This document shows, piece after piece, positions 5,482-43,079 of a stretch of DNA of 43,079 nt. Source of the stretch: an uncultured Spartobacteria bacterium. GTDB lineage: Bacteria; Verrucomicrobiota; Verrucomicrobiia; Chthoniobacterales; Chthoniobacteraceae. The stretch spans positions 1-43,079 of the forward strand of contig CAIWVL010000223.1 of NCBI GenBank assembly GCA_903916085.1. Reading direction: 5' to 3'. Every line of letters begins with the position of its first letter. Position 1 is the first letter of the stretch. The position numbers and the translations under genes are program-made. Below the pieces are notes generated by a model, which was given only the letters and a program-made list of their open reading frames with translations, searched no databases and was not told where the DNA came from.

Positions 5482-5502
5482 AAAAAAGGTGGCCCCACCT
5501 TT
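5482..5502 (-). terminator. Rho-independent terminator for the pheST transcript
   Basis: Arms AAAGGTGG (5485-5492) and CCACCTTT (5495-5502) lie next to an A run at 5482-5487. Read on the minus strand this is a GC-containing stem ending in six T. It lies about 325 nt beyond the pheT stop, so the transcript would have a long 3' end unless the closer hairpin also acts. Confidence 0.55.
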
Positions 5503-5786
5503 GCCGTCTAACCAGATTTCCCGTTCCCTCGTTAGGTTAACGGTGGAGACCTAGAGCGGGCATCAGACTTCCAATAAAGGCATGTCATCAACCTACCCAC
5601 TCGAGCCTCCTGATTATGTAATATCGGATCGGAATTTCCAGCGTATACTCGAACAACGCAGGGCCATTATTTTTAAGTTACACACAAACGCCCAGACTTC
5701 TGAAAACGCTCATGTGCCGCATTTTAACGCAACAAACAGACACCACCACAAGAACTAGATAAATGATCTAGACTAAAGAACAAGCA

Positions 5787-27901: not shown

Positions 27902-27977
27902 GCGGGTGTAGCTCAGTTGGTAGAGCACTTCCTTGCCAAGGAAGATGTCGCGCGTTCGAGTCGCGTCACCCGCTCCA
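27902..27977 (+). tRNA. tRNA-Gly (anticodon GCC)
   Basis: A complete cloverleaf of 76 nt. The acceptor arms are GCGGGTG (27902-27908) and CACCCGC (27967-27973). The D arm holds AGCTCAGTTGGTAGAGC. The anticodon stem is CTTCC/GGAAG with loop TTGCCAA and anticodon GCC at 27935-27937. The T arm contains GTTCGAGTC. The discriminator is T27974 and the CCA end is encoded at 27975-27977. It reads GGC and GGT glycine codons. Confidence 0.97.
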
Positions 27978-40932: not shown

Positions 40933-41961
40933 ATGAAAGCACTCCAGCTCGAAAAGCCACTCACTTGGCGCCGAATTGAAATCCCCGAACCACCCGCGCC
41001 AGCTGCGGGCGAGGTGCTCGTACGCGTGCAGCGCGTAGGCATTTGCGGCACGGATCTAAGCGGTTTCCTCGGCAAGATGCCGTTCTTCACCTACCCACGC
41101 GTTCCCGGTCACGAACTGGGCGTGGAAGTCCTCGCATTGGGCGAAGGTGTGACGACCCTCAAGGTAGGCGAACGCTGTTCCGTGGAGCCCTATCTCAACT
41201 GCCAGAAGTGCTATTCCTGCCGTCGCGGTTTTACGAACTGTTGCGAATTTCACAAAACCCTCGGCGTCATGTGCGACGGCGGCCTCACTGACCGCATCCT
41301 TCTTCCAGCGAGAAAGTTGCATCCCGCTCCCAACCTGACTCCCGACCAGTGTGCATTGGTAGAAACCCTCGCCATCGGTTGCCACGCCGTCAACCGCGGT
41401 AACCCTAAACCAGGGGAGACCGTTCTCATTATCGGCGCCGGTCCCATCGGTCTCTCCGCGCTAGAATTTGCCAAACTCTCCGGAGCACGCGTGGTCGTCA
41501 TGGACATTAGCGAGGCCCGCCTCGCCTTTGTGCGTGAGCAAATGGGCGTTCCCAACACCCTGCTCGTGCGCGGCGACGAGTCTGATGCGCTCGCTCTCGC
41601 CGCACTCACGGACGGCCAGCTCGCAGATCTCGTTATCGATGCGACCGGCAACAACAAGTCGATGGTGCGCGCCATGGAGTTTGCCGCATTCGCCGGAAGG
41701 GTTGTCTTCGTGGGAATCACTCAGCAAAATCTCGAATTCCCGCACGCCCCGTTCCTGCATCGCCGAGAGTTGACGCTCCTGGCTAGTCGCAATGCGCTCT
41801 CAGGCGACTTCACTCGCATCATTTCGCTCATTGAAGAGGGCAGAATCAATACGGCGCCGTGGATCACGCACCACGCCAGCTTTGATGAAGTGCCCGAAGT
41901 GTTCCCGAGCTGGGTAAAGCCCGAAACGGGCGTGATCAAGGCGGTGGTCCGAATGGACTAA
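40933..41961 (+). CDS. Zinc-dependent medium-chain alcohol/polyol dehydrogenase
   Basis: 342 aa, typical MDR length. The catalytic zinc region reads VGICGTDLSGF with GHELG, and the structural zinc loop has four cysteines in CQKCYSCRRGFTNCCEF. The NAD(P)-binding motif is GAGPIGLSALEFAK. It resembles L-galactonate, sorbitol or threonine-type dehydrogenases. Its position 29 nt behind the tagaturonate epimerase-like gene suggests oxidation of a sugar acid or polyol into that pathway. Start at the ATG 40933 without a Shine-Dalgarno. Cofactor preference and substrate are undetermined. Confidence 0.9.
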   Translation: MKALQLEKPLTWRRIEIPEPPAPAAGEVLVRVQRVGICGTDLSGFLGKMPFFTYPRVPGHELGVEVLALGEGVTTLKVGERCSVEPYLNCQKCYSCRRGFTNCCEFHKTLGVMCDGGLTDRILLPARKLHPAPNLTPDQCALVETLAIGCHAVNRGNPKPGETVLIIGAGPIGLSALEFAKLSGARVVVMDISEARLAFVREQMGVPNTLLVRGDESDALALAALTDGQLADLVIDATGNNKSMVRAMEFAAFAGRVVFVGITQQNLEFPHAPFLHRRELTLLASRNALSGDFTRIISLIEEGRINTAPWITHHASFDEVPEVFPSWVKPETGVIKAVVRMD

Positions 41962-42486
41962 GCATTGGCCCCCACACAGGGCGCAGGGGACTCGTAGGCA
42001 GAACTGGCTAGAAGGTAGGATCTCCTATGGACATCTCTGGAAGGAACCTTCAACAATTGGCCAGTCTTTCTGAAGCCTCCGCGAGGGGGCTAGGAAATTA
42101 GACGAGCCGGTGGTGATGCGAGGAACGAGCGGAACCACCGGTGATGCCCAGACAAAGCTCTGCGCGCCGGAGGTGCGCGAACAAACCCTCACACAGAACC
42201 CGAGTCGCTTGGGTTGCGGATGTTTCTCGCACACCTGCCGGAGCGCAATCCGTCTGGTGCGGTATACCGGTGGTCCCAGTCGCTTCGCTCCTATCACCAC
42301 CGGCTCTCTTCAGAAGCCTCCGGCTCGGTTGCCGACTTGGACCTTCTAACAATCCGAACAATTTCGCCGTACAGCTACCAGGTACTAGAGAAGGAATTCC
42401 TCAGATGTGGCCAACCTTCCCAGAGATTACCAACTTTCATTAGCCTTCGGCTACACACCCAAAGAGAGATTAATGATTACCGATTA
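41962..42486. other. 525-nt intergenic region holding the long palindromic repeat
   Basis: It lies between the convergent dehydrogenase and DUF4337-like genes. Its centre (42070-42335) is the repeat element listed separately. The rest includes a short AGGAATTCCT palindrome near 42392 and a GATTAC direct repeat near 42470. Frames of 79-101 codons here run through the repeat in several phases and look non-coding. Confidence 0.65.
42070..42335. repeat. Long imperfect palindrome with two REP-like hairpins (MITE-like element)
   Basis: GCCGGTGGT (42106-42114) and ACCACCGGC (42296-42304) mark the ends of a roughly 199-nt imperfect inverted repeat. Its centre lies at about 42206 in the small hairpin AACCCGAG/CTTGGGTT (42197-42215). 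Each end carries its own hairpin (42106-42142 and 42266-42304). Inner arms also match, for example CCAGAC near 42149 with GTCTGG near 42253, and the GCCGGAGG region with CCTGCCGG. Flanks (GAAGCCTCCG near 42072 and 42313) match those of the short copy at 2624-2716. It looks like a non-autonomous mobile or REP-type element. Confidence 0.75.
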
Positions 42487-43079
42487 CTAATGCCCCATAC
42501 CGAGCGCCGTAACGGCTAAGTAAACCCCAAAACCACTGACCAAAATCCCAGCGAACCACATCGACCGTACCTTAGTAATCACACAAAACGTGCAAAGCAC
42601 CAATCCCATCTCGACAGTCAGATGCGCCCAATCCAAGCGAACAGCCTGATGATGCGCAACGTCGCTTTCGGCGGCCTTAGCTTTGGCTGCCTCCACACGC
42701 TCTACAGCAAGCTGTTGAAAGCGCTTCCCAGTCACAACTAATCCACCGGTGGTGTCGTTCTCAGATCCATCCTCATTGCGTACCGGAAACTGATCTACGC
42801 CCATCTTAATATCCTCTTCAGTAGTCTTATTCTTCGTGATGTAACCTTCCCAGCGCTTAATTTCGTTGTCGCGAAGATCTTCCGAGCCCTGTTTTAACGG
42901 AAAAAGCTTAGCGAACGCCATCGCCCGCTCCAGCTCCTCCAGTCGGGCGACCTTAGACTGAAACCGCAGAAACGCATTACTCGCCTCGACTTTGAGTTCA
43001 GCGCTCTGAGTCAAAAGTTGGCTCGCTTCGCTCTGTAATCGTAACACCGCGGCATGCTCACGATGCCCCAAAAAGGCGA
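42487..43079 (-). CDS. DUF4337-like membrane protein (5' truncated)
   Basis: On the minus strand the frame is open to the window edge, so the start is outside. About 197 residues remain. The first 60 form a charged helix with coiled-coil character (LLTQSAELKVEASNAFLRF). A second helix around residues 110-140 is Ala-rich (ERVEAAKAKAAESDVAHHQ). The end has two membrane helices (about 150-165 and 170-190: VEMGLVLCTFCVIT, WFAGILVSGFGVYLAV). This arrangement, with HHQAVRLDWAHLTVEMGLVLC, matches DUF4337 proteins, whose function is unknown. It converges with the dehydrogenase gene across the repeat element. Confidence 0.7.
   Translation of the reverse strand, partial: AFLGHREHAAVLRLQSEASQLLTQSAELKVEASNAFLRFQSKVARLEELERAMAFAKLFPLKQGSEDLRDNEIKRWEGYITKNKTTEEDIKMGVDQFPVRNEDGSENDTTGGLVVTGKRFQQLAVERVEAAKAKAAESDVAHHQAVRLDWAHLTVEMGLVLCTFCVITKVRSMWFAGILVSGFGVYLAVTALGMGH

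Follow-up and report, generated by a model that had tools for sequence, protein, structure and literature searches.

Closest described systems

REPINs and RAYTs have been described in several studies (Bertels and Rainey 2011, PMC3116915; Quentin et al. 2018, PMC6006769; PMC8266576). The 2018 classification (PMC6006769) lists subclass 1.2 of the TnpA-Y1 proteins with its motifs and length and with the entry 'no' for REPs, and associates no DNA structure with these proteins, neither REPs nor IS ends. A limited literature search of main texts, mostly without subscription papers, yielded no report of REPs next to enzymes of subclass 1.2. GTAG REPs, REPtrons and TIRYT elements, including those of the verrucomicrobium Opitutus terrae, were described by Di Nocera et al. 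2013 (PMC3733652), and the TIRYTs have since been assigned to subclasses 2.1, 2.2 and 2.5.

Here we characterize a palindrome from an uncultured Spartobacteria bacterium (contig CAIWVL010000223.1; the window is the whole stretch of DNA analysed, 43,079 nucleotides). Its core is quite probably a non-autonomous REPIN-like element, composed of the inverted REP-hairpin arms of an HuH/Tyr1 unit minus the transposase gene and embedded in a MITE-like repeat. An initial sequence-only reading had proposed a MITE, a REP/BIME or a structured element. The first two descriptions both apply, one nested in the other: the core is REPIN-like, and the MITE-like repeat around it has terminal inverted repeats of a different kind.

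Anatomy of the element

The palindrome lies in a 525-nt gap between two convergent genes, one on either side. The features are listed below in window coordinates, with the strand where one is assigned and the basis in brackets.

40933-41961, + strand: zinc-type alcohol dehydrogenase gene (left neighbour)
41991-42381: whole MITE-like repeat, 391 bp, imperfect terminal inverted repeats (alignment of 10 copies, tabulated ends, terminal-repeat search)
42074-42091: outer left GC-rich hairpin AGCCTCCGCGAGGGGGCT (fold and copies)
42098-42101, + strand: TTAG foot of the left REP (window sequence against the family alignment)
42104-42306: REPIN-like core, a palindromic spacer between two inverted REP hairpins (fold, pairing, pattern match, similar arms by Y1 genes in relatives)
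42106-42141, + strand: left REP hairpin GCCGGTGGT...ACCACCGG (pattern match)
42162-42179: left inner palindromic block GCGCGCCGGAGGTGCGCG (sequence; also found in relatives' cores)
42196-42214: central hairpin AACCCGAGTCGCTTGGGTT (sequence, core comparison)
42228-42246: right inner palindromic block CGCACACCTGCCGGAGCGC (sequence, fold)
42267-42304, - strand: right REP hairpin, inverted, GCCGGTGGT...ACCACCGG (pattern match)
42315-42325: outer right GC-rich hairpin AGCCTCCGGCT (sequence, pairing)
42487-43071, - strand: DUF4337 gene (right neighbour)

The imperfect palindrome claimed at 42070-42335 is real: the 266-nt strand folds as DNA at -71 kcal/mol, compared with -49.6 +/- 4.0 for dinucleotide shuffles (z -5.4), and none of 200 shuffles was as stable. 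The core is slightly narrower than these limits and the whole repeat extends beyond them, and the central hairpin, first placed at 42197-42215, was seen at about 42196-42214. The arms 42104-42122 GAGCCGGTGGTGATGCGAG and 42288-42306 CTCCTATCACCACCGGCTC are 89% complementary, and 42126-42142 pairs with 42266-42282. The core has the architecture of a REPIN, with two inverted REP hairpins, a spacer between them and one joint hairpin. No ORF of at least 100 aa matching a family lies inside it, and the tnpA gene that IS200/IS605 elements carry between their subterminal hairpins is absent; relatives carry a transposase gene or another short spacer at the position of the central hairpin. The foot of the REP is TTAG in the family consensus of the window genome, and TTAG, GTAG or ATAG in relatives. 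It lies directly at the stem in most aligned copies, whereas in the window copy 5 nt (ACGAG) separate the left foot from its stem and the right foot has no TAA, so that this copy looks degenerate. Outside the core, the 14 nt at 42068-42081 are directly repeated at 42309-42322, before the outer right hairpin. Elsewhere in the window, a single REP hairpin of the core's family stands at 2657-2693 (GCCGGTGGTTCCGCTCGTGCCTCGCATCACCACCGG), with a GC-rich hairpin just upstream; no matching terminal repeat was seen there.

The same initial reading suggested that the strand could form one long arm with side hairpins. The arms do pair, but the comparison of 17 aligned cores, in which most pairs are invariant, leans thinly toward two local hairpins as the form that may be recognised. 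The local REP stems are 98.1% paired and contain one pair with a compensatory change in two sequences (a covariation score reached by 8 of 500 shuffles), whereas the long-range alternative is 96.7% paired and shows no compensatory change. The long arm was set aside as the conserved structure.

Copies in the window genome

We searched the genome of the window, a draft of 3.70 Mb in 379 contigs that is 97.2% complete. The palindrome matched 72 times, often as a fragment or as a self-match on the opposite strand; about ten copies are near full length, and partial matches run into the dozens. A full-length alignment was made of ten copies, which measure 305-406 bp, mostly 374-392, with uncertain ends in those that are the most worn. 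The pattern GCCGGTGGTN{10,40}ACCACCGG has 58 matches in this genome (31 forward and 27 reverse, a few hairpins matching both strands), and its reversed, non-complemented control has none. This is the dispersal in many copies that characterizes REPINs. The sequence-only reading had named a lack of further copies, with drifting arms, as the outcome that would speak against it; copies proved abundant and their pairing is kept. The core also occurs with quite different flanks at two loci, on contigs C96 and C86 (L131 and L133). A second REP-dimer family was noted at five loci (L126-L130, on contigs C30, C177, C232, C248 and C290), which shares the stem; its GTAG feet point inward, and its inner and outer hairpins are AACCC/GGGTT and GCACCCC/GGGGTGC, respectively.

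A structured RNA, or a transcription terminator that serves the two convergent genes and is maintained for its fold, would account for the location of the palindrome in a convergent gap and for its strong fold, which is obtained as RNA as well as DNA. This explanation is highly improbable: the copies are dispersed and mosaic, two of them (L009 and L017) lacking whole blocks, and the Rfam scan of the window found no family at the palindrome, its only matches being elsewhere, a 6S RNA at 5488-5667 (-) and a tRNA gene at 27902-27974 (+), both at Rfam gathering scores. The element may nevertheless have a secondary role at mRNA 3' ends.

The outer repeat

The terminal inverted repeat has the family consensus CTAGTAGGCNGTNCGG at one end and its complement at the other, and CTAG or a near form stands at most copy ends. 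The ends of the window copy are worn, with CTCG...CCAG instead of CTAG and 3 and 5 mismatches. The repeat thus has the terminal inverted repeats of IS630-type MITEs, in imperfect form in the window copy. For neither layer was a target duplication or an empty site established, including by a search via the flanking DUF4337 gene, so that CTAG as a duplication and CTAG as terminal sequence are indistinguishable.

A congeneric IS630-like element of 1124 bp (L170) has the same CTAG-terminal format as the outer repeat. At two other loci (L048 and L063), ends of the window family precede IS630-like N-terminal fragments that were recognised by eye; HMM scans gave no confirmation, and the fragments had no plasmid or family match. 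From these formats, an IS630-like origin of the outer repeat is likely, if unproven. Two candidate partners were rejected. On contig C239, the fragment of an IS630-like transposase at L055 (a match to NF033545 that stays under the cut-off) was considered as the owner of the terminal repeat, but comparison with a congeneric copy indicates a different IS630-like gene, joined at CTAG to the right end of a copy of the repeat. The other, a DDE_3 gene (L064), has no matching ends.

Several variants of the outer repeat were observed. Around 32630-32738 of contig C46 (L045), a repeat of about 105 bp has the same outer ends without the palindromic core, and represents an empty or deleted form. Six further loci (L035, L053, L054, L057, L059 and L063) hold related repeats with the same ends and other interiors, and several of these abut, neighbouring ends sharing a CTAG-like tetranucleotide. 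The long outer repeat was not found in the relatives searched.

REP hairpins and a Y1 transposase in relatives

In relatives, the matches are mostly to the REP unit (query positions 115-151) or to parts of the core, often as inverted pairs. The pattern AGCCGGTGGTN{8,24}ACCACCGG occurs in 22 of 57 genomes, with up to 72 forward and 84 reverse matches in one of them, and its reversed control has no match in any of the 57. Among the assemblies that share the REP are MAGs under the names Prosthecobacter debontii, Brevifollis gellanilyticus and uncultured Chthoniobacter. In three relatives (G029, G015 and G025), an intact gene encoding a 148-aa HuH/Y1 protein is flanked on either side by REP hairpins of the family. 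At one such locus (L067) a REP hairpin is followed by TTGCGCTCCGGCAGGAGCGCGAGAAAC and then by the start of the gene; compared by eye, the window core resembles this unit with a short variable centre in place of the gene. In another relative (L070; genome G032, contig C31), a tandem array of GCCCGGAGTTCGTCGAACAC-like units lies downstream of a REP pair, inside a reading frame.

The 148-aa protein belongs to PF01797 Y1_Tnp (E 3.7e-20 and 1.4e-22) and to the IS200/IS605 proteins of NCBIfam, and is distantly similar to the solved ISHp608 transposase. Its motifs are DH[IV]H, WQ and Y[IV]xNQEEHH; with the Y---Q--HH form and a length of about 148 aa, these correspond to the signature of subclass 1.2 TnpA-Y1, an assignment made by motifs and length, without a tree against reference sequences. 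The Y---NP motif of class-2 RAYTs is absent. Mobilisation by a RAYT, as suggested initially, stands in part: the REP arms do flank a Y1 gene in relatives, but the enzyme carries the subclass 1.2 signature and not that of a class-2 RAYT. Moreover, the window genome gave no match to this transposase at E 1e-10 (in a 97.2% complete draft the gene may be missing by assembly), so that the cognate enzyme expected of a REPIN in the same genome was not found there. Two IS200-like genes of the window genome were rejected as partners, having no REP motif nearby.

These data bear on whether the window element is only a DDE (IS630-like) MITE, whose palindromic interior would be an immobile passenger with incidental REP hairpins. 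Most long copies do share the outer terminal repeats, and the window genome gave no matching Y1 transposase. This explanation is nonetheless unlikely, since the core has other flanks elsewhere in the same genome and the REP unit is dispersed in relatives without the outer repeat, with such arms flanking Y1 genes there.

Hairpins beside subclass 1.2 genes

We surveyed loci having the DH[VI]H motif (in the class-wide set also NH[VI]H) and the Y---Q--HH motif, scanning 250 bp on each side of the gene for TAG before an 8-bp stem in which one mismatch was tolerated. The first set came mostly from the window's own family and partly from its order, and the second was class-wide (Verrucomicrobiae). 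In the first set, 18 of 28 loci have a hairpin on at least one side and 13 have inverted hairpins on both sides, while 10 have none by the scan rule; the controls gave 0.024 per 250 bp in flanks 500-1200 bp away and mostly 0-0.04 in Markov resamples. The class-wide set gave similar figures (at least one side at 17 of 25 loci, both sides inverted at 10, none at 8; control 0.032 per 250 bp). Pooled over the 53 loci, which are the best-scoring ones returned and not a random sample, some genomes recurring, a TAG-footed hairpin lies within 250 bp at 35 and on both sides in inverted orientation at 23, against a control of about 0.03 per 250 bp. Among trinucleotide feet, TAG ranks first, in 58 of the 106 flank segments; AGC, in 43, overlaps with TAG, and the next independent foot reaches 20.

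The stems vary between loci (24 different sequences, in a list that was counted in a slightly different way and also includes one plasmid locus), and the TAG foot and the hairpin recur. Among eight loci with differing ends, three (L198, L205 and L210) hold 8 of 8 local pairs on both sides despite these differences, although L205 and L210 share the same hairpins and could be a single lineage. As local pairing is a condition of the scan, the survey shows association and recurrence of form, not independent covariation. Outside the phylum, a Bacteroidota gene on a Persicobacter plasmid (CP012861.1) has TTAG-CGATGGGT...ACCCATCG on one side and ATAG-CGATGGGT...ACCCATCG on the other; a second such gene, from Bernardetia, has inverted repeats, but under a rule of 6 perfect bp it shows no TAG hairpin.

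Class-2 RAYTs are the known partners of REPs, and the REPs described here could belong to one that was lost or left unassembled, the subclass 1.2 genes being chance neighbours or insertion targets. The check for class-2 genes covered some of the REP-rich genomes, and the window genome does have one long RAYT-like gene, at the start of contig C77 (L033), where the contig end truncates it; its 314 aa include NH[F]H and YVDLNP motifs. However, this gene does not fit as partner, with no CCGGTGG or CCACCGG in the 1.67 kb covered, and chance insertion would not place inverted hairpins on both sides of the gene at 23 of 53 loci, mostly at distances of 65-115 bp. We regard this possibility as quite improbable.

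Proposed mechanism and its significance

By analogy with the TnpA-REP and IS608 models (PMC8266576, PMC3116915), the subclass 1.2 Y1 transposase would bind each hairpin on single-stranded DNA. The (G/T/A)TAG foot would serve as guide for cleavage and rejoining, and the inverted hairpin pair would move in trans as one unit. The outer repeat would be mobilised by an IS630-type transposase. Most long copies in the window genome are core-in-MITE chimeras, and so probably spread as passengers of this DDE (IS630-like) enzyme; since the core also exists alone, a REPIN was probably captured by a MITE, an order of events inferred from the copies. The element is presumably inactive at present.

The recurrent TAG-foot hairpin pair beside subclass 1.2 genes is a concrete candidate substrate for these enzymes. 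The chances seem evenly balanced that subclass 1.2 Y1 proteins of Verrucomicrobiota and Bacteroidota are as a rule the enzymes of (G/T/A)TAG-footed hairpin pairs, forming REPtron-like units parallel to class-2 RAYTs, and that such a REPIN can outlive its transposase by riding a DDE-type MITE. If true, this would bring IS200-like Y---Q enzymes into REP biology alongside the class-2 RAYTs. The hairpin pairs also bear on the origin of REP transposases from IS200, and the nesting seen here points to a way in which a REP family might survive in a genome that lacks its transposase.

Comparison with known systems

The family resembles the REPIN/RAYT systems by its two inverted REP hairpins with a TAG-type foot, palindromic spacer, dispersal and similar hairpins by a Y1 gene in relatives. 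It differs from them by the Y---Q--HH motif of subclass 1.2 in place of Y---NP of class 2, the G/T/A-TAG foot, a core of about 200 bp and the absence of a detected transposase in the window genome. With the GTAG REPs, REPtrons and TIRYTs it shares the phylum, a GTAG-type foot, dimers with structured spacers and long inverted repeats around some Y1 genes, whereas the TIRYTs belong to subclasses 2.1, 2.2 and 2.5. The O. terrae GTAG REP families were compared by description, and the window REP may be one of them. Subclass 1.1 of IS200/IS605 likewise has a Y1 enzyme of the Y---Q type and hairpins near the element ends; here the hairpins are mutually inverted, the motifs are WQ and Y---Q--HH, and the window element is gene-less. 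Finally, the outer repeat is short and gene-less like the MITEs of the IS630 family, with terminal inverted repeats and CTAG ends, but its partner transposase is putative and it carries a complete REPIN-like core.
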